Origin: Acidobacteriota bacterium
Lineage (GTDB): Bacteria > Acidobacteriota > Terriglobia > Terriglobales > Acidobacteriaceae
Assembly (NCBI GenBank): GCA_021792795.1
Contig: JAJYUB010000026.1
Span: 1 to 50,745 of the forward strand
Direction: 5' to 3'
DNA: 50,745 nt
Every line of letters starts with the position of its first letter. Position 1 is the stretch's first letter. This document shows, piece by piece, positions 30,147-50,745 of the stretch. The notes beneath the pieces are model-generated. The model ran no database searches. It was not told the origin of the DNA and saw nothing but the letters and a program-made list of their open reading frames with translations. The translations under genes were made by a program, and so were the position numbers.

Positions 30147-32300
30147 TCAATGCGTCGCCGACGTTGCCGGATGGGAATCAGACTTCAGATATTGATCGAA
30201 AAATTTTGCGCCGGCTTCGTAAGCCGCGACCCAACTGCGATGCAGAAGGAAATCGTGGACCTCATCGGGAAAGATCAATTCCTGAACTGGGACCTGCTGT
30301 CGCCGAAGCGCTGCCGCCAACTGGACGGTCTGCAGAAACGGCACTTCGGGGTCGTCATCGCCCTGGATCAGAAGCACGGGCGAACGCCACTGCTTGATGG
30401 ACGACAGTGGCGATGACTCCCAGGCGAGACGCCACCTGGCGTTGGGATCGGCTGCAGTGTCTGAAATGAAAAAGTTCTCCGGGTGGTCGATATTCCAGTC
30501 ATGCACCCCGGACATATCGACGCCCGCGGCAAACAGGTCGGAGGCTCGAGAGAGAGCGAGCGCCGTCAAGAAGCCGCCCCAGCTCCCACCCCAAATACCG
30601 ATGTGAGCGGGTTCGACATCGCACCTGCTGCGCAGGTAGATCGCGGCCCCTTTAACATCGCGAAACTCGCTCGCTCCGGTTGGGCCATAGTCCATCGCCT
30701 CTCGGAAGTCTAGGCCGTAGCCGATCCCGCTGCGGTAATTGATCGAAAGAACAACGTATCCCCGGCTCGCGAGGTACTGGTTCATGGCATACGCGTTCGA
30801 ATAGTAGCCCATGTCATGCCAACCCAGCAGCATCTGGCGTTGGGAGCCACCATGGACAAAGACGACTGCGGGATGACGGACACAATTGGCGACGCCTGCG
30901 GGAAGAAACAACTGGCCATGAATTCGCATTCCGTCTGTCGCGTTGAAAATCGCGGGCTTTGGAGTGACCATGCTCGCCGCGGGAAAACTTGATGGGATGG
31001 TTTGCGGCGCAAGGTCGCGAACCTGCCCAGAGCTGGCGACAACGGCCGGACGGATGGGAATGCGCGTGTCCGAACGCAAGACGGCGACGGTGCGATTGTC
31101 ACTGGCGACAACCGGCGCGGTTTCGATGCCAGTACCGCGCGTTAGTTGCTCTGGACTGCCTCCTGTGACAGAAACCTTCCAGACGTGACGGCGGTCTGTG
31201 TCATTTTGATTGGAAGAATAGACGATGGTCTTGCGGTCGGGACTGAGCGAAACATCCTCCACAATAAAGTTGCCCGGAGTCAGCAGCGTGGCTGGCCCTG
31301 CCTGCAGGGGAACAGTGTAGAGATGGGTCCAGCCGTCTTTTTCCCAGGGGAAAACGAGGTGATCGCCCGCGCCCCAGAACACCTGATGGTCGCCAACAAT
31401 CTCGCGGAAGACACTGCCGGGTCCCGTGTTGGCCTTCCAGATTGAATGACCGTTGCCGGTGGCGACATCCGCAACCCGGATGGACCATGGCTGTCCAGTA
31501 CGATGCGGCCCGTCGAAATTTTCTTCCTTGAAATACGGAATCCGGATGAACGCGATCTGGCGGCCATCCGGCGACCACATGGGGTAGCGGTCATGATCGG
31601 AGCCGGGGTCGAGATACCGAAGCGTGTTGGTCGGAAACGAATAGACCCCGATAAAACTGTGGCTGGCGCGATCGCTGACGAAGGCAAGCTCTTTGCCATC
31701 CGGCGACCATCGCAGCGTGCCGCTGGCGCCGAGTGTGTGCAGCAATTGCGTTGGTTGGGCGCTGGGGCCCTTTAGATTCAGGAACCAGATCTGTCCATCC
31801 AGCACCCACGCGACAGCATCGCCTTGGGTAGAAAAAGCGGGAGAATTGCCTGGGCCGAGTTTGCGTGGAGCGCTGCCATTGAGCGAAACCACCCACACAT
31901 CCTGCTCCACGCCTTGCGGTATAAGCGCTGGATTCGCTGACATTTTTTCGGCGTTATCCGGATCGCTGCCACGGACGTAAACAATGAATTCCGCGCCGGG
32001 GGACCAATGCAAGTCTGTGATGTCCTGCCCATCGTCCTGCGCGTAGTTTGTGATTTGGCGCGATGCATAACCGCCGCTGCTGTTCGTTGGCACGGCGATC
32101 CAGATATTCCGCCTTCCTTCCGCGTTCGAAAGCCATGCGAATTTGTTCCCTGCGGGCGCCGCGAGCAGGTTGGAGTTGAACGGCGCGCTCATCGCCTGTT
32201 GCAGCGTGAATGCAGTTGGCATGGGTTGCGCAACGATAGCAAGCGAGAACGCCAGCGAGAAAACAATGGCAGCACAAGTAAAGCGCGCGATACTTGGCAT
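30147..32300 (-). CDS. S9-family (prolyl oligopeptidase/dipeptidyl peptidase) exported serine peptidase
   Basis: A 717-residue peptidase with an N-terminal signal segment (ARFTCAAIVFSLAFSLAIVA). A seven-bladed beta-propeller built of PD40-like repeats spans about 60-440 (LRWSPDGKELAFVSD, PMWSPDGRQIAFIR, LSPDRKTIVYSSNQND). The alpha/beta hydrolase domain spans about 455-710: nucleophile Ser in IGIWGGSWGGFLTALA, Asp in LIQGDDDPEVPF and His in FPDEVHDFLLHRSW. It cleaves short peptides in the periplasm. It is the third gene of a leftward set NlpC/P60 endopeptidase, decayed dipeptide epimerase, peptidase, so murein peptides are a likely substrate. Start 32300 is preceded by CGGAGCG; the frame stays open upstream into the epimerase remnant, but that extension is not a normal peptidase N-terminus. 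Confidence 0.88.
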   Translation of the reverse strand: MPSIARFTCAAIVFSLAFSLAIVAQPMPTAFTLQQAMSAPFNSNLLAAPAGNKFAWLSNAEGRRNIWIAVPTNSSGGYASRQITNYAQDDGQDITDLHWSPGAEFIVYVRGSDPDNAEKMSANPALIPQGVEQDVWVVSLNGSAPRKLGPGNSPAFSTQGDAVAWVLDGQIWFLNLKGPSAQPTQLLHTLGASGTLRWSPDGKELAFVSDRASHSFIGVYSFPTNTLRYLDPGSDHDRYPMWSPDGRQIAFIRIPYFKEENFDGPHRTGQPWSIRVADVATGNGHSIWKANTGPGSVFREIVGDHQVFWGAGDHLVFPWEKDGWTHLYTVPLQAGPATLLTPGNFIVEDVSLSPDRKTIVYSSNQNDTDRRHVWKVSVTGGSPEQLTRGTGIETAPVVASDNRTVAVLRSDTRIPIRPAVVASSGQVRDLAPQTIPSSFPAASMVTPKPAIFNATDGMRIHGQLFLPAGVANCVRHPAVVFVHGGSQRQMLLGWHDMGYYSNAYAMNQYLASRGYVVLSINYRSGIGYGLDFREAMDYGPTGASEFRDVKGAAIYLRSRCDVEPAHIGIWGGSWGGFLTALALSRASDLFAAGVDMSGVHDWNIDHPENFFISDTAADPNARWRLAWESSPLSSIKQWRSPVLLIQGDDDPEVPFLQTVQLAAALRRQQVPVQELIFPDEVHDFLLHRSWVAAYEAGAKFFDQYLKSDSHPATSATH

Positions 32301-32378
32301 AAGGACAACGCTCCGAAAGAGAGATGGCAATCCTAGTGGATGAAACATGATCCGCGCACCACACATGCACTCTGCTAT

Positions 32379-32584
32379 GCGGGCAGCAAGGCCGGGACGG
32401 TCCGGAAGGAGCAGCTTGCCCTCTTTTACCGTGACGCCCCGATAAGGACCGTTCGCGACAAGAAGGTTGCCGTCCAGATCGGCGTCGTCCGCCAGCGGAG
32501 AAAGATGGGCCGCCGCCGGAATGCTGCAGGAACTGGAAACCATGCAGCCCAGCCCGCGCTCTTCAATACACTGCGACGATTCAT
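32379..32584 (-). pseudogene. Deletion remnant of an L-Ala-D/L-Glu-type dipeptide epimerase
   Basis: The ATG at 32584 overlaps the stop of the NlpC/P60 gene (ATGA, 32581-32584) and opens with a twin-arginine start, MNRRSVLKSAG. After about ten codons the frame turns to nonsense and ends near 32430. In another frame the same stretch reads CIEERGLGCMVSSSCSIPAA, then AHLSPLADDADLDGNLLVAN and GPYRGVTVKEGKLLLPDRPG, the C-terminus of enolase-superfamily dipeptide epimerases (YkfB-like). So the start and the last 60 or so residues survive and about 300 codons between them, including the catalytic barrel, are gone. The remnant then reads without a stop into the peptidase gene. Neighbours match the ykf murein-peptide pathway. 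Confidence 0.8.
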
Positions 32585-33486
32585 GGTTTTACTCTCCGCT
32601 CGACCACCAGCAGCTTGCGCCAGTATGCATCCAATGGACTGATTTGAATCACTGGATGACCGTGCGTAGTTGCCTGGATAAATTTTCCGTCCCCGATGTA
32701 CATTCCGGTGTGCGTGATCTTGCCGTCGCCGCCAAAGAACAGAACGTCGCCGGCGCGCAGCGCGGACACCTTGACCGGCTCGAAGCCGCTCCATGCGGCC
32801 TGAACATCGGCATCTCGCGGAATCAGGTAGCCTCGCTGGCGCATCAGCATTTGCACAAAGCCGGAGCAATCATAGCCAAAACTGGAACTGCCGCCCCAGG
32901 TATAGGGAAGCCCCAGAAAGCGGCGGCTGAACTGCTCCATCTGCGGGACGCTCATGTGGGGCTTCAGATCGGCGCCTCCGTTGGCGCTGAGAGCGACATC
33001 GCCGCGTTGCACCCACGCCGTGCGTCCGTCGGGCAAGTCCACTTGCAGCCAGCGTCCACCAGGTTTTTCCTGCTCCACTTCCAGCCGCGCTTCAAACGGC
33101 AACGTCAGCAACGGCGCATGGGTGGTGACATCTGGATCGGGATAGAGATGAGCGCGCAGTTCCTCTACCTCGGCAACCTCGCCGGTGGTGGCATAGCCCG
33201 CGCCTCCGTGAAGTTTAATTAGGTCGGCGCTGGAAACCCAGCCGGTATATCCGTCCTCCGGGGTGCGGATTTTTACCCATCCCGGTTGCTCCGCCACTTC
33301 ATCGACGCTGGTTGAAAATATCGCTTGCGAAACCACATCGACATTGGCGAACGGGGCGGAGAACATATTGGCGACCGGCACGGCGACCACGAAGCGTGTT
33401 CCCTGCGCCAGCGCCGCCAAAGACGCCAGCAAGAACACCGGCAGCGCCAGGAATGACCATCGAACGCGTAATACAGTATTTCTCAT
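32581..33486 (-). CDS. NlpC/P60 murein endopeptidase with SH3-like domains (YkfC-like)
   Basis: A 301-residue exported cysteine peptidase with a signal peptide (RWSFLALPVFLLASLAALAQ). Two bacterial SH3-like domains follow (about 30-95 with GWVKIRTPEDGYTGWVSSAD; about 105-175 with GGRWLQVDLPDGRTAWVQRG). The NlpC/P60 domain spans about 185-295: catalytic Cys in GYDCSGFVQML, His in KITHTGMYIGDG, and a third polar residue in THGHPVIQIS. YxWGGSSSFGYDCSG is typical. Such enzymes cut gamma-D-Glu-diamino acid bonds in muropeptides. Start 33486 (ATG) gives a normal signal peptide; the frame is open to a TTG at 33558. Its last four bases overlap the start of the epimerase remnant. Confidence 0.9.
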   Translation of the reverse strand: MRNTVLRVRWSFLALPVFLLASLAALAQGTRFVVAVPVANMFSAPFANVDVVSQAIFSTSVDEVAEQPGWVKIRTPEDGYTGWVSSADLIKLHGGAGYATTGEVAEVEELRAHLYPDPDVTTHAPLLTLPFEARLEVEQEKPGGRWLQVDLPDGRTAWVQRGDVALSANGGADLKPHMSVPQMEQFSRRFLGLPYTWGGSSSFGYDCSGFVQMLMRQRGYLIPRDADVQAAWSGFEPVKVSALRAGDVLFFGGDGKITHTGMYIGDGKFIQATTHGHPVIQISPLDAYWRKLLVVERRVKP

Positions 33487-33749
33487 AGATTCCACGGATT
33501 TCCGGACTGCTTCCGCAATCCTTTCAACGACTGCGAATGCAACAGACGCTTCCTTCAAAGGTGCAAAAGTTCAACAAGCGAGAAAAACCCAGAGTAGCAC
33601 CAGAGCGGGGCGCACGACGAATACCTCACCCGCGAGCAACCGGGCCCAACACCCCGCTCGTCAGGCCCACCTGCCGCCGCCATGCCGGAGATCTACTACC
33701 TCAGCTTCCAGGAGAAAGAGTCGGTTCGCCAACATATCTAGAAGACTAG

Positions 33750-33811: not shown

Positions 33812-34561
33812 ATGTCTGCTGAAAAATACTTGATTTGCGCCGAAGAGACCATCGCGACGATCCGGCAAACACAAACTAAAAAGATAGAAGAAGCGTCCGC
33901 GGCATTTGCGCGCTCTATTCAGGCCGGCGGCAAAGTCTATCTTTTCGGCAGCGGACACTCCGTCATTCCCGTTCTGGACATTTTCCCTCGCTACGGCAGT
34001 TTTGTAGGATTTCAGCCGATCCTCGATCCGCGCCTGATGTGGTTTAACGTCGTCGGACCCGGCGGAGCAAGAGAACTGCTCTGGCTGGAGAGGACAGAGG
34101 GCTATGTTTCCGTGGTGCTGCAGAGTTATCAGTTGGAGGCCCGCGACTCCATCCTGATCTTTTCTCATGGCGGCATGAACGCCGCGCCGGTTGAGATGGC
34201 GATCGAGGCCAAGAAAAAAGGTTTGACCGTGGTTTCCGTGTCTTCCCATCAAAACCACCGGCAGGCGAAGCCCACGCATTCCAGCGGCAAAGACCTGGCC
34301 GATGCTTCGGACATTGCGATCGACAATTGCGTGCCGCCTGAAGACGCTTTAGTGAGCGTGGAAGGGATAAAGGAAAGGTTCGCCGCAGGGTCCACCGTCG
34401 CCGTCGTCTCCATTGCCATGGCGATAGTGGCGGAAACGGGCGTGCGACTCGTAAAGTCCGGAGCGAAGCCTTCCACCTTTGTCTCTCCCAACGTCGGGCT
34501 GCCTGCGGACCACAATCAAAACGTCTTCCGCGAGTATGAACGCTTCGTTCGGGGCCGCTAG
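33812..34561 (+). CDS. SIS-domain sugar isomerase-like protein (UPF0309 type)
   Basis: A 249-residue protein with one SIS (phosphosugar-binding) fold. Typical segments are GGKVYLFGSGHSVIPVLDIF (about 38-57), ARDSILIFSHGGMNAAPVEM (about 110-129) and TVVSVSSHQNHRQA (about 140-153). It belongs to the UPF0309 group, whose substrate is not firmly known; the wider family includes GlmS-type isomerases and the MurNAc-6-phosphate etherase MurQ. It is first in a rightward operon with a GH42 enzyme, a ROK kinase and an MFS permease, so a phosphorylated (amino) sugar is the likely substrate. An AGGAGG site supports the start. Confidence 0.82.
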   Translation: MSAEKYLICAEETIATIRQTQTKKIEEASAAFARSIQAGGKVYLFGSGHSVIPVLDIFPRYGSFVGFQPILDPRLMWFNVVGPGGARELLWLERTEGYVSVVLQSYQLEARDSILIFSHGGMNAAPVEMAIEAKKKGLTVVSVSSHQNHRQAKPTHSSGKDLADASDIAIDNCVPPEDALVSVEGIKERFAAGSTVAVVSIAMAIVAETGVRLVKSGAKPSTFVSPNVGLPADHNQNVFREYERFVRGR

Positions 34562-34640
34562 ATCTGACCGTATCATTCATGTGTAACGAATCGATGGCAA
34601 GGAACGAATCAAGTCCGCGGCTGGAAATCTGGGGACATCA

Positions 34641-36956
34641 ATGAAGCGTGTTTTCGCAGTATGTCTCGCACTGTCGCTCATGGCCGGCGTCATGCTCGCG
34701 CAATCCCACGCCCACGAAAGCGCGACGGTCCCAGCGGTCACGAACGCCGCTCTCGGTTCCAGCGCATTTTTTCCCATGGCAGTCTGGTATAGCGGAGGCA
34801 AGGCGCGCGCCCCCATGCTCGGCCCCGTGGACGCGAACTCCGCTCAGCAATGGGGCAAGGACCTGGATCAGATCAAGGCGATGGGTTTCAACACGGTTAA
34901 GACCTGGGTAGACTGGTCCACCGCGGAGCCAGCGCCCGGCGTTTTCGATTTTAAAAACCTGGATCTGCTGATGAAGCTGGCACATCGGCGCGGTCTGCGC
35001 GTGATTGTGCAGATTTATATGGACTCCGCGCCGGACTGGGTCGGTGCGCATTTTCCGGACGCGCGTTTTGTCGATAGAAGCGGAGCGGTGATCACGTCTC
35101 AATCCGCCCCCGGTTATTGCGTCGATGACCGGGCCGTGCGGGAGAAAATGGTGGAATTCTACGTGGCCCTTTCCAAGGACGCCAACCAGTTCCCCGCTCT
35201 GTATGGATGGGACGTGTGGAGCGAGCCCCACATTGTCAATTGGGCGGAAATTTCTTATTTGAAGGACCCGGAGTTCTGCTATTGCCGCTACAGCCAGCAG
35301 CGGTTTCGCGAATGGCTGCAGGCAAAATACAAGACACTAGATGCGTTAAATACCGCGTGGTATCGGCGATTTACAACCTGGGACCAGGTAACGCCGCCGC
35401 GATTTTCTACCATCCTTTCCTACGCGGATTATCTGGATTGGCGGGCCTTCATCGATGACAAGCTGGCGGAAGATTTGCACACGCGCGTGGCGGCCATTCG
35501 CAGCGCCGATCCCAGTCATCCCATTACCAGCCATGCAGACGCGCCAGGACTTTTCACTTCCCCAACCGACGGCTACGGCCAACCGGACGACTGGAAAATG
35601 TCGAAGGCGGCGGATTTCTTTGGCACTTCGATCTACCCCAACATGACGCACATGTGGCCGGACTGGATGCTGGCCTCCGGGTTGGACTTTATTCGTTCCG
35701 CGGGCCACAGCTATGGCAAGGGCTTCTGGATTGGCGAGCTGCAGGCCGGTCAGGGGGTCAGCGGCATGAGAATCGCCCAGCCTGTAACGGCACAGAACGA
35801 GCAGTTCTGGCTGTGGCAGGTCATCGCGCACGGTGCCCGGGAAGTTGCCGTATATGCGTGGTACCCGATGAGCTCCGGGTACGAATCGGGGGGCTATGGC
35901 CTGGTCAATCTCGACGGCTCGATTACCGATCGGGCCAAGACGGCGGGAGCAGTGGCACGCGTCATTGAACGGAACGCTGCGGGAATCGACCGCGCGCAAC
36001 CGGCCACAGCCCATGTCGCCATTCTCTATGATCGTCTTTCGTATATGGTGGGCGGCACAGAACCGTCCAACGCGACGCTTGCAAACGCCGAGCGCGATTC
36101 GCTGGTTGGGGTCTACCGCGCTTTCTGGAAGGACCAGGTTCCCGTCGATTTCCTGAATGCTCCCACGCTGACAAGCGAAGACATGCGCCCGTATAAAATC
36201 GTCTTTCTGCCCTACCCGGTGATGCTTTCCAGCCGCGTCGCCGATGCTGTGAGACAGTACGTTGCCAACGGAGGCACCGCGGTCGCAGAAGCACGCCTCG
36301 CCTGGAATGACGAGCGAGGATACGCGAGTTCGGTGATTCCCGGCTTCGGCATGGACCAGGTGTTTGGAGCTCATGAGACCTCGATGCAACCTGAAACCGA
36401 ACCACATTTGCTCCTTCAATCTTCCGCGGGTTTGCCGGGCATGAAGAACGGCGACACGATCGACGGCGCGTCTTTCGAGGAGGACCTGCAGCCGCTCGCG
36501 GGCGCGTCGGTGCTGGCGCGTTTTTCCGACGGGCAACCTGCCATCGTCGAAAACTCTTTTGGCCGGGGAAAGGCGGTCCTTGTCGGCTCCTTCGTTGGCC
36601 TGGCGCATCAAGAGAAACAGGACGCCATGACCGGGAAATTTTTCGTGTCGCTGGCCAGCGCAGCGGGGGTCGCACCGCATGTTCGCGTCTCCGGCCCTGG
36701 AACGTCGAAGGTGGAAGTTCGCCGGCTCACCAGCGAGGACGAAGAGTTCATTTTCGTTTTCAACCATGCCGATGGTCCCGCTAACGCCACGATTTCCCTA
36801 CGGCTACCATGGCAGGTGCAGAACGCGCGCGATCTGGTGAGCGACGAAAGGTTGTCTTCACCCGCAATCCAGGTTGCGGCCAACGGCGAAGAGACTGTAC
36901 TCCAGAAAAATCTCGCGCCCAACGCTATCTGGATCGTCCGATTGGACAGAAAATGA
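34641..36956 (+). CDS. Exported GH42-like beta-galactosidase family glycosidase
   Basis: A 771-residue glycoside hydrolase with a signal peptide (about 1-20). The TIM barrel (about 40-430) carries the two expected glutamates: E195 in WDVWSEPHIVNW as acid/base and E366 in GFWIGELQAGQG as nucleophile. WSEPH replaces the more usual NE-type motif of GH42, so substrate preference may differ from plain galactosides. A trimerisation-type domain follows (about 470-650; YKIVFLPYPVMLSSRVADAV), then a beta C-terminal domain. The end overlaps a possible ROK start (ATGA at 36953). It probably releases a monosaccharide in the periplasm for the permease and kinase encoded downstream. Confidence 0.85.
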   Translation: MKRVFAVCLALSLMAGVMLAQSHAHESATVPAVTNAALGSSAFFPMAVWYSGGKARAPMLGPVDANSAQQWGKDLDQIKAMGFNTVKTWVDWSTAEPAPGVFDFKNLDLLMKLAHRRGLRVIVQIYMDSAPDWVGAHFPDARFVDRSGAVITSQSAPGYCVDDRAVREKMVEFYVALSKDANQFPALYGWDVWSEPHIVNWAEISYLKDPEFCYCRYSQQRFREWLQAKYKTLDALNTAWYRRFTTWDQVTPPRFSTILSYADYLDWRAFIDDKLAEDLHTRVAAIRSADPSHPITSHADAPGLFTSPTDGYGQPDDWKMSKAADFFGTSIYPNMTHMWPDWMLASGLDFIRSAGHSYGKGFWIGELQAGQGVSGMRIAQPVTAQNEQFWLWQVIAHGAREVAVYAWYPMSSGYESGGYGLVNLDGSITDRAKTAGAVARVIERNAAGIDRAQPATAHVAILYDRLSYMVGGTEPSNATLANAERDSLVGVYRAFWKDQVPVDFLNAPTLTSEDMRPYKIVFLPYPVMLSSRVADAVRQYVANGGTAVAEARLAWNDERGYASSVIPGFGMDQVFGAHETSMQPETEPHLLLQSSAGLPGMKNGDTIDGASFEEDLQPLAGASVLARFSDGQPAIVENSFGRGKAVLVGSFVGLAHQEKQDAMTGKFFVSLASAAGVAPHVRVSGPGTSKVEVRRLTSEDEEFIFVFNHADGPANATISLRLPWQVQNARDLVSDERLSSPAIQVAANGEETVLQKNLAPNAIWIVRLDRK

Positions 36957-37006
36957 CACTTGTGGTCCGCGCTTCGAACCGGGCTGGCCATGGTGAAGGA
37001 GAAACT

Positions 37007-37903
37007 GTGGGACCATTCGCGCTGGCAGTCGATCTTGGAGGCACAAAGATTGCGGCGGCACGCGTGGACATTACAGGCAACATCACGCACCACCGCGTGG
37101 CCCCTACACCGCGCGACGGTGGCGAGAATGTCGTTGCCGCCGTCATCGACATTCTCCATCAACTCCCGCGACAAGGCGTCTGCGCGCTAGGGGTTGATGT
37201 GCCCGGCCTTGCCTATGCCGACGGCAGCGTGTGGGCACCCAATCTTCCCGGCTGGAAACGCATGCCCTTGGGCGCGCGCCTCAACGCGCATTTTGCGCTT
37301 CCAACTTTGGTCGAGAGCGACCGCAATGCATTTGTCATGGGCGAGGCGTGGCAAGGAGCAGCGCGAAACTGCCGCGACGTGATTTTTTTCGCCATCGGCA
37401 CCGGAATTGGCGCGGGCATCATCAGCGATGGACGCCTCGTTCGTGGGTCTCGTGAACTGGCCGGCTGCCTCGGATGGATGGCAACGGGTTCTCGGTTCCT
37501 TCACCGATATAAAGACATTGGCTGCCTGGAGTCGCACTTGGCAGGGCCTGCAATTGCCAGGAAAGCCAGTCGAATTCGAAAAACCGCGACCACCGCGCGC
37601 GAGCTGGTCCGCCTGGCCCGTCAGGGCGATCCCGTGGCAAAAAAACTGATCGCGCAAACGGGAGAATACCTCGGTCTCGCTCTTGCCAACATGGTCAGCA
37701 TCCTTGACCCGGAGATGATCGTAGTCGGCGGCGGTGTTGCGGCGGCTGGAAACCTCTTGTTGACCCCCGCGAGAGAAACCATGCGACAGTGGGCCCAGCC
37801 GCTGGCAGGCAAACAGGTGCGGATCGTCCGTTCCCGTCTGGGCGCGCGGGCGGCGCTGCTGGGTACAGCAAAGATGGCTTTCGGCATCGCTTGCCATTCG
37901 TAG
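37007..37903 (+). CDS. ROK-family sugar kinase
   Basis: A 298-residue ROK-family sugar kinase. The ATP-phosphate motif LAVDLGGTKIAAARVD is at the N-terminus; sugar-binding and catalytic segments are LGVDVPGLAYADG, ESDRNAFVMGEAWQGAA and FFAIGTGIGAGIISDG. The family zinc motif (CxCGxxGCxE) is degraded to GCLGWMATG ... DIGCLESH, losing the paired cysteines. The GTG at 37007 follows AAGGAG at 36996-37001; an ATG at 36953 overlapping the GH42 stop is the alternative start and adds 18 unusual residues. It should phosphorylate the sugar brought in by the following permease; which sugar (glucose, galactose, GlcNAc or MurNAc type) is not decided by the sequence. Confidence 0.85.
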   Translation: MGPFALAVDLGGTKIAAARVDITGNITHHRVAPTPRDGGENVVAAVIDILHQLPRQGVCALGVDVPGLAYADGSVWAPNLPGWKRMPLGARLNAHFALPTLVESDRNAFVMGEAWQGAARNCRDVIFFAIGTGIGAGIISDGRLVRGSRELAGCLGWMATGSRFLHRYKDIGCLESHLAGPAIARKASRIRKTATTARELVRLARQGDPVAKKLIAQTGEYLGLALANMVSILDPEMIVVGGGVAAAGNLLLTPARETMRQWAQPLAGKQVRIVRSRLGARAALLGTAKMAFGIACHS

Positions 37904-37931
37904 CTGGCTGCTGCGAGGAGAAGGGGCTTCC

Positions 37932-37955
37932 ATGAAACTACTGAGCGCGCCATGA
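37932..37955 (+). other. Seven-codon mini-ORF coupled to the MFS permease
   Basis: GAGGAGAAGGGG at 37915-37926 is the best ribosome site before the permease, but it serves the ATG at 37932. That frame encodes MKLLSAP and stops with TGA overlapping the permease start (ATGA at 37952). The permease itself has no good site, so its translation may depend on ribosomes finishing this mini-ORF. Confidence 0.4.
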
Positions 37956-39169
37956 TTTCACCAAGCGCGAAAGAAAAAACAATTCGGCGCGCCAGTCTCC
38001 TTGCGACGGTCAATGCCTGCATGTTTGTTTTCGGCATCGTCCTGCTGCTGATGGGGTCTCTTCTTCCTACCCTCAAGTTCGGCAACGGGCGCTCTGGAAG
38101 CCTCGGCTCGTTTCCACTGGTTGGAATCCTGATTGCCACGGCGCTGGTTGGCCCGGTCCTGGACAAACTCGGCGCGAAAGCTGCTTTGGTTGTAGCCCTG
38201 GCGCTCATCGCCTCCGCGCTCGCGGCCATTCCATCCCTTGGGAGTTATGCTGCGCTGGCGGTTGCCGCACTGATCTACGGCTTGGGAGCAGGCGTGCTGA
38301 ATGCATCGGCGAACGCTCTGGTTTCAGGCCTGAGTGCATCGGGACGCGGCGCGGCACTGAACCTGCTGGGGTTTTCCTTCAGCCTGGGCGCGGTGGCGGT
38401 GCCCCTTCTCTTGTCTCTGACAAAAGGGAGGTTTTCGCCCGCGACCGTCCTGTATATTTTGGCGGCGGCTTCTGCCGCGATTCTTGTATCCGTCCTGATG
38501 CAAGAATTTCCCGCCCCGACGCACGCAAGCACGCCGCTCGGAAGCCTGCTGAAGGTCCTCGATCAGCCCATCGTATGGCTTTTTGGCGCGCTGCTGTTCT
38601 TCGAGTCCTGCAATGAAAATTGCATGTTCGTGTGGGCAGCGAAGGTGGCGCAAGAACTGCTGCATACCTCCGCGCAGCGGGCGGAACTGGTGCTTCTCGG
38701 CTTGAGCGCCTCATTGGGCGCTGGAAGGCTGTGCGCCGTGTTCTGGCTCAAAGGGATCGGCGACCGCAATACCATCCTGCTCTCCGCCGGCATCGCCGTT
38801 ACAGGCGCGATCGTTGTGCTGAGTTCCGCAACGCTTGCCGGCGTGGCGACCGGTTTTTGCATCATCGGCTTGGGACTGTCTGCCATCTTCCCTACCATCC
38901 TGGGAATGGCGGGAGATCGCTTCCCTCGCGAAACCGGAACTGTGTTTGGCGCCATTATCGCCGTGGGACTGGTCGGCGGTATCGCGGGGCCAATGCTCGG
39001 TAGCTGGGCGGCCATGTTCAACCCGGCCAGGGTCCTTGTGGTTCCGCTGGTGGCGGCAATTGGCGTGGCGGCCCTTACCTGGATCGTCTCGCGCCTGAAG
39101 TTTGCTGTTGCAGCCAACTCTCCAATCACTGCTCCGAATACATCAGGTACGCCTTGCGACGTTCCTTGA
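37952..39169 (+). CDS. MFS sugar permease (FucP/NarK-like 12-helix transporter)
   Basis: A 405-residue inner membrane transporter with twelve predicted helices, two sets of six joined by a loop near residue 195. The loop GPVLDKLGAKAALVVALALI between helices 2 and 3 is the MFS signature, and NASANALVSGLSASGRGAAL resembles the helix 4-5 region of sugar:proton symporters. Position after the glycosidase and ROK kinase genes suggests uptake of the released sugar. The last 44 bases overlap the 3' end of the convergent gene at 39126. A short coupled ORF precedes it. Confidence 0.82.
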   Translation: MISPSAKEKTIRRASLLATVNACMFVFGIVLLLMGSLLPTLKFGNGRSGSLGSFPLVGILIATALVGPVLDKLGAKAALVVALALIASALAAIPSLGSYAALAVAALIYGLGAGVLNASANALVSGLSASGRGAALNLLGFSFSLGAVAVPLLLSLTKGRFSPATVLYILAAASAAILVSVLMQEFPAPTHASTPLGSLLKVLDQPIVWLFGALLFFESCNENCMFVWAAKVAQELLHTSAQRAELVLLGLSASLGAGRLCAVFWLKGIGDRNTILLSAGIAVTGAIVVLSSATLAGVATGFCIIGLGLSAIFPTILGMAGDRFPRETGTVFGAIIAVGLVGGIAGPMLGSWAAMFNPARVLVVPLVAAIGVAALTWIVSRLKFAVAANSPITAPNTSGTPCDVP

Positions 39170-41543
39170 ACTGTTCGATACCGTCTCGCCATGAATCGGC
39201 AATGGTTTGCGGGTCCACATGGTCTTCCAGCGCTTTCAGCGTTGCCTGATTCGCCAGCAGCGGCGCGATCGAATCCAGGTGGTACTGCGTTGGATACATT
39301 TTGTACAACATTGACGCGATCTCGATGCCGACTTCCGGAACATTCAACTCATTGCGGTTGGTGACGATGAACTGCACGCCCTGGCAGGCCTGGCCCGCGT
39401 AGAGATACGGCGCTTGTGGAATGAACTGAACAGGCATGAAGCGAATGCCTGGGACCATGCGACGATTCAGCGCGCTCGCGAATTGTGTCGCGTCGATCCA
39501 CGGAGCGCCAATCCACGCGAACGGCGTATCGGTGCCGCGACCCACGGAGATGTTGGACGACTCGATCGTTCCGAGCGCAGGATACATCGTAGCTTCGTCC
39601 AGAGTGCGCAGATTGGGCGATGGATTCACCCATAGCAGCGAGGTGGAATCGTACCAGTCCCCGCGTTGCCACCCCTTCATCGGGACCACAGTCAGCGACG
39701 CGCCCAGACGCCCTTCTCCGTTGAAGTACCGGGCCAATTCCCCCATCGTCATTCCATGCCGCACCGGCAGCGGCATAAACCCTGTGTAGCTGGAATGACC
39801 GGCGTCGGAGACCGGGCCCTGCACAAACGAGCCGGTGATTGGATCCGGCCGATCGAGAATCACAATGTCCGTTCCCGTGTGGGCCGCTGCCTGCAGGAAA
39901 TAGGCGACCGCCGTTTCGTACGTATAAAAACGCACCCCGGCATCGCGCAGATCGATGACAACCGCATCCAGATGGCGCAGTTTGTTTATCGGTGGATGAC
40001 GTTCAGCGGCTGTAGCTCCGTACATGCTGACGACAGGCAGTCCAGTCGCGGTGTCCGTGCTGCCGGAAATGTTTGTGGTATCCATTTTCCCGGTGATCCC
40101 ATGCTCCGGACTGAAGAGCATCGTCACTTTCAGGCCTGGCACCTTTGCGGAGGCATCGTGCACCAAGACATCGATCGTGCGCTTGCCGTGGCTATCCAAT
40201 CCAGTCTGGTTGCTGAGCACGCCCACGCGCAAGTGCCCGCCATGCTTCTTTTCCAACTCTGCCAGCGCGGAAAAATTCTCCCGCTCCAGAACGTCGATGC
40301 CTGTTTCCACCGAGCCGTTTCGGGCTGGCCATCGGCGCATGTCCGTCAACGACTCGTTATAGCCTGTGAGCCGCGAGATTTCCCTTCCCGACTCCGGAAC
40401 CTGAACATCGAGCGCCTCTGCGGCCGCGTTGGCAAGCTTTCCTTCCAGCGGAACGGTGTTCACGCCGCCATTCGGATGCACCCGGTTGCTGAGGAAGATC
40501 ACATACGTATCGCTCCATGGATCCATCCAGATATCTGTGCCGGTAAAGCCTGTATGTCCGAAGCTGCCCACCGGAAACAACTCCCCACGGTTCCCGGAGA
40601 ATGGACTTTCTATGTCCCAGCCCAGGCCACGCAGCGCCACGCCCGTGGCCGGCTGCTGCGGGGTAGTCATCTTCTCCGCCGTCAGCCGATTGAGTGGAAA
40701 TTTGCTCGGTCTTCCCGCCAGCAGGTCCAGCAGGTTCTGCGCGAAAATCGACAGGTCGCTGGCGGTGCTGAACAAACCGGCGTGCCCGGCAACGCCGCCC
40801 ATCCTTCTCGCTGTGGGATCGTGTACCACGCCCACCAGCATGTGGTGGTCCTCGTCATACTGCGTCGGCGCAATGTCGCTGCGCCAGGACTCGGGCGGCA
40901 GAAAGCGCGTGTGGCCCATCCCCATTGGAGCAAAAACATACTTGGCGGTATACGCATCGAGCGTCATGCCGCTCAGTTTCTCCACCAGCGCGCCCATCAT
41001 GATGAAGTTGATGTCGCTGTAGCGAAACGCAATCCCAGGCGGACGTTCCGGCTTCACTGCAAACGCCATCTCATAGGCCGTCTGTTTGCCGGACCACGGC
41101 GCTGTAAGATCAAGATCGGGTGGCAAACCGGAATAATGCGTCATGATCTGCCGGATGGTGATGTCTCTCTTCCCATTCGCCGCAAACTCAGGAAGGTATT
41201 TCGACAGCGGATCGTTTAGACGGAAGCGCCCCTGCTGGTAGAGCTGCATCGCCGCCGTCGTGGTAGCTAGCACCTTGGTCAGCGACGCCATGTCGAAGAC
41301 GGTGTCTTCTGTCATCGGCGCGCGGGTCGGCTCCAATGAACGCTCGCCGTACGCCTTGTGGAAGACAACCTGACCGTCATGTCCAATGACGATCGCCGCT
41401 CCCGGCACTTTGTGCGCCTCGATCGCCGAGGCCATGATGCGGTCAATACTGCTGAAATCCGGCGAGGGCTTCTGTTGCGCTTCTAACTGGCCGGCAAGCA
41501 GGAGAAACAACGCGGCGCAGAGCTTAAAAGTGATCTGAGTCAT
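39126..41543 (-). CDS. Fusion of YbbE-like serine hydrolase and NamZ-like exo-muramidase (DUF1343)
   Basis: An 805-residue exported two-domain enzyme. Signal peptide about 1-22. The N-terminal serine hydrolase (about 28-385) has the beta-lactamase/DD-peptidase fold: SxxK at S87-K90 (MASLTK), YSD at 175-177 and a GHTGFTGT segment. The C-terminal DUF1343 domain (about 400-800) is of the NamZ type: LRVGVLSNQTGLDSHGKRTI, MLFSPEHGITGKMD, VDLRDAGVRFYTYETAVAYF and YPALGTIESSNISVGRGTDT. In Bacillus the equivalents are separate neighbours: YbbE (AmiE, muramyl-peptide amidase) and YbbC (NamZ, releasing MurNAc from glycan ends). Joined here they could strip stem peptide and free MurNAc in the periplasm. 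The start at 41543 gives the signal peptide; the longer frame does not. Confidence 0.88.
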   Translation of the reverse strand: MTQITFKLCAALFLLLAGQLEAQQKPSPDFSSIDRIMASAIEAHKVPGAAIVIGHDGQVVFHKAYGERSLEPTRAPMTEDTVFDMASLTKVLATTTAAMQLYQQGRFRLNDPLSKYLPEFAANGKRDITIRQIMTHYSGLPPDLDLTAPWSGKQTAYEMAFAVKPERPPGIAFRYSDINFIMMGALVEKLSGMTLDAYTAKYVFAPMGMGHTRFLPPESWRSDIAPTQYDEDHHMLVGVVHDPTARRMGGVAGHAGLFSTASDLSIFAQNLLDLLAGRPSKFPLNRLTAEKMTTPQQPATGVALRGLGWDIESPFSGNRGELFPVGSFGHTGFTGTDIWMDPWSDTYVIFLSNRVHPNGGVNTVPLEGKLANAAAEALDVQVPESGREISRLTGYNESLTDMRRWPARNGSVETGIDVLERENFSALAELEKKHGGHLRVGVLSNQTGLDSHGKRTIDVLVHDASAKVPGLKVTMLFSPEHGITGKMDTTNISGSTDTATGLPVVSMYGATAAERHPPINKLRHLDAVVIDLRDAGVRFYTYETAVAYFLQAAAHTGTDIVILDRPDPITGSFVQGPVSDAGHSSYTGFMPLPVRHGMTMGELARYFNGEGRLGASLTVVPMKGWQRGDWYDSTSLLWVNPSPNLRTLDEATMYPALGTIESSNISVGRGTDTPFAWIGAPWIDATQFASALNRRMVPGIRFMPVQFIPQAPYLYAGQACQGVQFIVTNRNELNVPEVGIEIASMLYKMYPTQYHLDSIAPLLANQATLKALEDHVDPQTIADSWRDGIEQFKERRKAYLMYSEQ

Positions 41544-41713
41544 TCGTCTCGATTCCGGCACAAAGCGGGTGTTCGATCGCTGCGCCTTCGCATGAAAATA
41601 GTCGCCATTGTCTGACTTGTTCCGACTTTCAAAGCGGATTGCAAATAGGGGCGGCCTCAACGCTGACGCCCCAATGTCCTACTGCAAAACTTCCCAGACG
41701 GCTGCAGATTCGG

Positions 41714-49999: not shown

Positions 50000-50623
50000 A
50001 TGATATTGCCTATGGCATCTGTCCGTCTTCTCCGCGGAGAACACATCCTTCAGTTGTTCGATGAATGGATTGAACGTTGGCACCATCAGCCTTTCGTCTC
50101 GGAAACGGCCGACCAGTTCGACACTGCGCTGGAGGGCCTGCACCGCGCCAATTTCGAACTTTGGCATCAGGAAGACAAGGCCCGCGACCGTCGTGCCGAG
50201 GATGCGGCGATTGCCTCCGCCAAGCGCGCGATCGACGCGATCAATCAGCGTCGCAACGATCGCATGGAACGCTGCGACGAACTTTTGTTGGAAGAATTGT
50301 CCTTGGAAAAGTTGCCCAATTCCCAGGCGGAGTTGCATTCTGAAACGCTTGGCTTGATGCTGGATCGGCTGTCGATTCTCAGCCTGAAAATCTACCACAC
50401 GCGCGAGGAGACAGGGCGAATTCCATCTCCTCCTGGTCATCGCGAACGCAATCTGCGACGCTTGGCGATACTTGAGGACCAGCGTAATGATCTCGCGGCT
50501 TGCCTGGATCGCCTGTGGCAACGGGTGCTGCGGGGCGAGGCCCGTTTCCATGTCTATCGCCAGTTGAAGATGTACAACGATCCCGACCTGAACCCCGTTC
50601 TCTACGACAAGTCCGCTACCTAG
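50000..50623 (+). CDS. DUF4254 family protein
   Basis: A 207-residue, mostly helical cytoplasmic protein. The family pattern is clear: FELWHQEDKARDRRAEDAAI, AKRAIDAINQRRNDRMERCD and LMLDRLSILSLKIYHTREE. No enzymatic motif is known to me; in other genomes such genes tend to lie near glycosyltransferase genes of the envelope. The ATG at 50000 follows CGGAG at 49989-49993; an in-frame ATG at 49910 has a less conserved extension. It is alone on this strand, between the ATP-grasp operon and a transposase fragment. Confidence 0.78.
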   Translation: MILPMASVRLLRGEHILQLFDEWIERWHHQPFVSETADQFDTALEGLHRANFELWHQEDKARDRRAEDAAIASAKRAIDAINQRRNDRMERCDELLLEELSLEKLPNSQAELHSETLGLMLDRLSILSLKIYHTREETGRIPSPPGHRERNLRRLAILEDQRNDLAACLDRLWQRVLRGEARFHVYRQLKMYNDPDLNPVLYDKSAT

Positions 50624-50632
50624 TGTAGTGCG

Positions 50633-50745
50633 TCATGCAGATTGACCGTTATGCAGGGCCGCCCGAGCGCGCTTGACCTTCTCCAGGATGTCGGCGGCCT
50701 TGGCGGTCCAGATGAAGGGTTTGGGGCTTTCATTGTGATGGTCGA
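50633..50745 (-). CDS. Partial IS630-type transposase C-terminus
   Basis: The window's last 113 bases, read leftward, encode HHNESPKPFIWTAKAADILE, then KVKRARAALHNGQSA and a stop at 50633-50635. DxHNxxPKPFxWTxxAxxILxKxxRA is the typical tail of one IS630 transposase group. It differs from the remnants at 3646 and 12495, so it is another element. The gene begins outside the window; whether it is intact is unknown. Confidence 0.85.
   Translation of the reverse strand, partial: DHHNESPKPFIWTAKAADILEKVKRARAALHNGQSA

Follow-up and report, generated by a model that had tools for sequence, protein, structure and literature searches.

The locus considered here raises the question of whether a bacterium that keeps the enzymes on both sides of a dipeptide epimerase has lost the epimerase step itself. 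According to the published description of the Bacillus enzymes, the ykfB-ykfC pair encodes an L-Ala-D/L-Glu epimerase and a gamma-D-Glu-diamino acid endopeptidase, and the association of the two genes is noted there for Acidobacterium sp. and Solibacter usitatus as well (PMC2954226). The window, that is, the whole stretch of 50,745 nucleotides that was analysed, is contig C106 of genome G000 (4.04 Mb, 133 contigs, completeness 98.2, contamination 0.01). On its minus strand, an intact NlpC/P60 gene, an epimerase fossil and an S9 peptidase gene follow one another (Table 1). An earlier note on this DNA had proposed that the lineage lost the epimerase recently and was left with the flanking steps.

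Table 1. Features of the window at and around the epimerase fossil
Feature	Position	Strand	Basis or remark
Leader element of locus B, GGTGCTACTCTGGGTTTTTC	33582..33601	minus	95-115 nt before the nlpC start
nlpC, intact, YkfC-type NlpC/P60 and SH3 domains, 301 aa	32581..33486	minus	Pfam; nearest solved chain 3h41 (YkfC)
12-bp direct repeat TCTTTGGCGGCG, copy 1, within nlpC	33412..33423	minus	
12-bp direct repeat TCTTTGGCGGCG, copy 2	32727..32738	minus	685 bp from copy 1
Epimerase fossil, start (MNRRSVLKSAG)	32553..32584	minus	ATGA overlap with the nlpC stop
Epimerase fossil, C-terminal part	32373..32552	minus	other frame than the start; last ~57 codons
52-codon frame made by the deletion	32426..32584	minus	open in G000 and G006
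S9 peptidase	30147..32300	minus	Pfam PF00326, PF00930

The earlier note had placed the remnant at 32379-32584 and described an ATGA-coupled MNRRSVLKSAG start that passes out of frame into an epimerase C-terminus; the junction was found and the coordinates are correct. The nlpC stop TGA (32583-32581) overlaps the ATG of this start (32584-32582). After 32 nt counted from the ATG (to 32553), the frame switches to the epimerase C-terminus at 32552, and the deletion junction is thus 32552/32553. Compared with the intact copies, about 910 bp are absent (a hand count from distances in the copies of contig C6, G006, G008 and G007). The length is not a multiple of three. Codons about 12-313 of 374 are gone and the catalytic domain is absent, so that the window holds a remnant and not an enzyme.

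The frame that contains LLLPDRPG was checked for epimerase similarity against solved structures and profile collections. Its 62 residues match chain 3iji (also 3ijl and 3ijq) with E = 4.1e-14 over residues 2-57, and there are weaker matches to 3rit (E = 0.022), 4gfi (0.026) and 1jpd of E. coli (0.33). In NCBIfam, racemase_DgcA (E = 4.5e-6, 26.1 bits against a cut-off of 400) and PRK15129, an L-Ala-D/L-Glu epimerase (E = 0.0018, 17.4 bits against 343), match the fossil, in each case over the C-terminal end of the model; a Pfam search of the frame gave no match. The structural-chain and NCBIfam matches bear out the proposal of a deleted dipeptide-epimerase-like remnant inside a murein-peptide (ykfBC-like) operon. 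A Tat signal on the epimerase start is plausible, with scores below the cut-offs even in an intact relative (PF10518, 14.0 vs 22.7 bits; TIGR01409, 13.7 vs 16.7).

A search of the rest of the genome for another epimerase found an intact gene on contig C6, which carries a second nlpC-epimerase pair (locus A; the pair in the window is locus B). The fossil is 88-89% identical, depending on the boundaries chosen, to the C-terminus of the protein encoded there. At locus A it is the epimerase that is whole (374 aa, L005:5515-6639) and nlpC that is reduced to a fossil, in which the first ~25 codons are fused to the last ~50. The intact epimerase matches solved chains 3iji (E = 6.6e-89), 3jva (3.6e-41), 1jpd (7e-39) and 1jpm (4.2e-35) and the Pfam domains PF13378 (116.3 bits) and PF02746 (34.3). 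It scores below all NCBIfam equivalog cut-offs: racemase_DgcA, an N-acetyl-D-Glu racemase and the best model, gives 223.4 vs 400 bits, PRK15129 153.2 vs 343 and A_G_epim_Thtga 120.5 vs 500. The protein is therefore called epimerase-like here; by sequence it is closest to dipeptide epimerases, and its likely substrate is suggested by its NlpC partner. At E <= 1e-10, the C6 gene and the window remnant are the only matches to it in G000. More distant members of the superfamily are represented by five PF13378 matches at E <= 0.001, three of them above the cut-off, the C6 gene included. A Shine-Dalgarno-like GGAGAG stands seven bases before its ATG, so the epimerase of locus A presumably need not depend on coupling to nlpC.

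The gene was thus not lost from the lineage, as the earlier note had assumed; an intact copy stands beside a reciprocal nlpC fossil, and nlpC and the epimerase have become unlinked. A plain loss, with the epimerase step discarded and the enzymes around it retained, would explain the window taken alone, where the epimerase is indeed deleted, and such losses do occur, since 10 of the 30 NlpC-bearing genomes of the family sample described below have no close epimerase. With intact epimerases on C6 and on contig C139 of the related genome G006, plain loss is hardly credible here. A gene remnant seen on a single contig is poor ground for concluding that a pathway has lost a step.

The complementary enzyme is retained in the window. 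Its nlpC is the sole PF00877 match in G000 (Pfam, E <= 0.001), and NlpC/P60 matches number one per genome in G000, G006, G007 and G008. The Pfam scores are 88.1 bits for PF00877 (cut-off 23), 49.9 for PF08239 (27) and 35.5 for PF23795, SH3_YKFC_2nd (27.4). In the published account of YkfC, the free N-terminus of L-Ala is bound by Tyr118 of the SH3b domain and Asp256 of the catalytic domain, and Cys238, His291 and His303 are catalytic (PMC2954226). The window protein aligns both Tyr118 and Asp256 with 3h41 (phmmer), with an offset of 22, counted by hand, between the chain numbering and that of the paper, and the YkfC signature residues are thus present. The catalytic Cys and the first His align with 3h41 as well, and the third position is Gln. 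At this position, which corresponds to His303 of YkfC, Gln is found in G000, G006 and G008 and His in G007 and G025.

Beside nlpC, positions 33812-41660 encode SIS_2, GH42, ROK and MFS proteins and a fusion of a beta-lactamase-like domain with a NamZ exo-N-acetylmuramidase (39126-41660); this is likely a murein-sugar cluster. The neighbours of locus A are a GH20 gene and a symporter gene. The neighbours at both loci fit murein breakdown. The leader of locus B is also found upstream at locus A. Six copies, from both loci of G000 and G006 and from G007 and G008, lie 95-115 nt before nlpC and agree fully in the first 11 nt, and GGTGCTACTCT followed by a T run is read both at 33582-33601 of the window (minus strand) and at about 5183-5200 of L005 (plus strand), while the flanking DNA has diverged. 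It is possibly a promoter or leader element.

To the right of locus A, G000 has about 3.5 kb with an S8 peptidase gene, a truncated MFS gene and a membrane protein gene. G006 is without this stretch, and an oxidoreductase gene lies there ~340 bp from the epimerase (stretches concerned: L005 7039-10316 and L036 1-590). The end of the window (50620-50745) and the start of C6 (L005 6-131) have 126 bp in common at 99%, which places a repeat at the point where each contig breaks off. Its peptide is reminiscent of the C-terminus of an IS630-type transposase; 36 aa of it gave no Pfam or NCBIfam match.

Within the genus, the module was found in 4 of 10 genomes (G000, G006, G007 and G008). In G001-G005 and G009, neither nlpC nor the epimerase gave a match at E <= 1e-10, some of these six genomes being incomplete. 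The nlpC-epimerase module is patchy even within the genus. Two of the four genomes have a single, undivided locus in which nlpC and the epimerase are intact and overlapping: in G008, a divergent carboxylesterase gene is followed by nlpC, the epimerase and S9, and in G007, the symporter gene, the divergent carboxylesterase gene, nlpC and the epimerase extend to the contig end. Locus A retains the symporter neighbour as in G007, and locus B retains S9 as in G008, where the peptidase is also the right-hand neighbour of the epimerase and 84% identical. When locus A was searched with tblastn for traces of S9 or the carboxylesterase, all matches were weak and scattered; the best of them (E = 0.004, 25% identity) lies inside the intact epimerase.

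In G006, contig C225 carries intact nlpC with an epimerase remnant and contig C139 carries the intact epimerase with an nlpC remnant; its S9 gene is broken by a contig end (C225, C19). Both deletion junctions are the same as in G000. The deletion at locus B accordingly predates the split of G000 and G006. The shared junctions also bear on the possibility that two organisms, each with its own deletion, were binned together, one supplying C6 and the other the window. The assembly is indeed a draft of 133 contigs with the two loci on different ones. Against this, G006 is a different species and has the same pair of loci and the same junctions, the contamination estimate is 0.01, and the divergence between G000 and G006 and the G+C content agree between the loci. 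Such an artefact is very unlikely.

Complementary losses with visible remnants are thus found at two homologous loci of one genome, and the undivided single locus is found in G007 and G008. The window is very probably one half of an operon that was split by duplication and reciprocal loss. The split is known from two genomes, G000 and G006, both draft assemblies with the loci on different contigs.

The two deletions can be compared in sequence. In both G000 and G006, the intact nlpC of locus B contains two copies of the 12-mer TCTTTGGCGGCG at a distance of 685 bp. At the nlpC junction of locus A, one copy is left (12/12 in G006, 11/12 in G000) and the rest is absent. In the loci of G007 and G008, even the 10-nt core of the 12-mer is absent. 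The 685-bp deletion at locus A probably arose by slippage or recombination between the 12-bp repeats. For the epimerase deletion, comparison of B with A leaves a junction ambiguity of ~2 bp, judged by eye. Neither of the two deletions is in-frame. Their mechanism and order are inferred.

Substitutions between G000 and G006 set the remnants apart from their intact counterparts. Over 54 C-terminal codons, the intact epimerase of locus A has 6 synonymous and 0 nonsynonymous changes, and the equivalent codons of the remnant at locus B have 5 and 9 (Fisher p = 0.014 vs intact). The epimerase remnant of the window is decaying. For the last 50 codons of nlpC, the ratio is 12 : 1 in the intact gene (B) vs 8.5 : 4.5 in the remnant (A); this comparison shows no significant decay of the nlpC remnant (p = 0.16 or 0.32, depending on rounding). 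Over the full intact genes, nlpC has 44 synonymous and 14 nonsynonymous differences and the epimerase 51 and 12.

These counts also bear on whether the remnant could still work as a small gene, or could supply the S9 peptidase with a chimeric N-terminal extension, as the earlier note had thought conceivable. The 52-codon frame made by the deletion is open in both species, and a 5-bp deletion common to both B remnants puts the old stop out of frame. The old frame does read without a stop into the peptidase in G000, giving a 798-aa ORF, as had been noticed. In G006, however, a stop closes the equivalent frame before the peptidase begins. In the window, the peptidase starts independently at 32300 with a signal-peptide-like MPSIARFTCAAIVFSLAFS. 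No purifying selection was seen between G000 and G006 in the new frame (2.5 synonymous : 5.5 nonsynonymous) or in the old one (5 : 9). Either function for the remnant is thus extremely improbable. Of what would have counted against the fossil reading of the earlier note, only half is seen in a relative: the same short sequence is present in G006, but its changes are like those of a decaying remnant and not of a conserved small gene.

The history of the two copies was examined with a maximum-likelihood tree of eight rows and 343 columns, 162 of these columns being absent from G007. The tree groups the A and B copies with a bootstrap of 80 (A 74, B 93) and places G008 outside. Among four topologies, the AU test gave 0.981 for A with B, 0.068 for B with G008, 0.016 for A with G008 and 0.026 for separate duplications in each species; the SH test rejects none of the rival topologies, and the KH test rejects only the separate duplications. 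Most likely, the duplication took place after the split from G008. Values of synonymous divergence (pS) between G000 and G006 are 0.13-0.19 for two genes of locus A and 0.10-0.26 for five genes of locus B, as expected if A and B descended together, and the G+C content of the two loci is similar (58.3 and 58.6%). In the shared tails, pS between A and B within a genome (A0-B0 and A6-B6 pairs) is 0.19-0.30, which is similar to the values between the species. Duplication, losses and speciation would thus have been close in time.

An alternative is that one copy was acquired from a related species on the G008 side, with later losses as after duplication. The AU test leaves room for B as the sister of G008, and over full genes the epimerase of A has a shorter synonymous distance to G008 (0.33) than nlpC and S9 of B (0.50 and 0.50). 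Within each shared tail, however, the distance to G008 is about the same for A and B, so the uneven full-gene distances look like a difference between genes. As the best tree unites A and B, and A as the sister of G008 has the low AU value given above, transfer is unlikely.

The copies could also stem from an inversion with staggered breaks, one copy at each end, by which the stretch between the cuts was duplicated. The retention of the left neighbour of the ancestral operon at A and of the right one at B would be consistent with this. An inversion predicts, however, that the right neighbour of A (the oxidoreductase gene) adjoins the left neighbour of B (the SIS gene), and this is not so in G007, the only genome in which both sides were testable among those that supplied neighbours (G007, G008, G004, G005, G002 and G006). 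Such an origin is highly improbable.

With duplication as the preferred explanation, it can be asked which site is the older. The SIS gene beside locus B has no adjoining nlpC in G007 or G008, and on this ground B may be the new site. In G028, which belongs to another genus, the symporter, a homologue of the NamZ fusion of the window, nlpC and the epimerase stand together; this arrangement counts against B as the new site.

The course of events would be as follows. An ancestral unit of nlpC (ykfC-like), epimerase (ykfB-like) and S9 peptidase would have been duplicated in the ancestor of G000 and G006. Copy B, now in the window, would then have lost the inside of its epimerase gene, and copy A on C6 the inside of its nlpC, most simply via the 12-bp direct repeats; each copy would have lost a different gene before the two species separated. 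The two enzymes are separate proteins that act in sequence, so either copy of each could be lost and the pathway can run in trans. The NlpC of locus B would release L-Ala-gamma-D-Glu from murein peptides, the epimerase of locus A would convert this product to L-Ala-L-Glu, and peptidases would finish the degradation. Both loci are presumably expressed and still serve one pathway, and the split was presumably simply tolerated. There is a small chance that it was selected: nlpC is now found next to the murein-sugar cluster and the epimerase next to the symporter, both with a leader copy of their own, so that two steps once locked together would have become separately controllable. If the split was selected, a bacterial operon would have been dismantled with benefit by duplication and complementary degeneration.

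The generality of the pair was assessed in a family sample of 300 genomes drawn evenly from a larger group. Epimerase matches at E <= 1e-20 were found in 26 of the 300 genomes, 20 of them close (at least 57% identity), and all 20 genomes with a close epimerase also match NlpC at E <= 1e-12; NlpC matches occur in 30 genomes altogether. In the 20 genomes with both genes, these are adjacent on one contig in 16, at overlapping contig ends in two and apart in two, G000 and G006. The two with overlapping ends, G136 and G128, were considered as further splits and rejected: the ends of their nlpC and epimerase contigs share sequence (134 bp at 99.3%; 25 bp exact), and in each genome assembly has probably broken an undivided operon. 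Among the best 80 of 223 epimerase loci, 49 have nlpC or a remnant of it directly upstream (one being the G006 remnant), 22 lack it despite more than 1500 bp of upstream sequence, 8 lack it with less upstream sequence, and 1 has nlpC elsewhere, as judged with a profile built from 7 sequences of the relatives set. In a record titled Nitrososphaerales archaeon (L095), an epimerase is 65% identical to the acidobacterial one; this is probably a misbinned contig.

Duplication-degeneration-complementation, or reciprocal gene loss, is best known after eukaryotic genome doubling. The present case is like it in having two copies, complementary losses and one working copy of each gene. It differs in its setting, a two- to three-gene operon of a bacterium, in that both scars are still readable, and in that whole genes and not regulatory elements were divided. 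The likeness to the ykfB-ykfC pair lies in the same two gene types side by side and in an NlpC with the YkfC signature residues; here, however, the genes are on different contigs, each beside the remnant of the other, and the epimerase has a Tat-like start, unlike Bacillus YkfB, for which the published description gives no predicted signal peptide (PMC2954226). In heterocystous cyanobacteria, groESL operons were duplicated and the second operon was kept and diverged in function, so that a duplicated bicistronic bacterial operon likewise has copies with different fates; unlike in the operon studied here, no reciprocal deletion is apparent in that account (PMC5381637). A word search of open-access titles and abstracts gave no clear bacterial precedent in which duplication of an operon was followed by reciprocal, differential or complementary loss. 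The process itself is known in kind, and what stands out is how complete the record is: the two copies with their scars, the repeat pair of one deletion in the sister copy and the undivided operon in congeners are all preserved. The break-up of operons is mostly inferred from end states, and here the intermediate itself is preserved.
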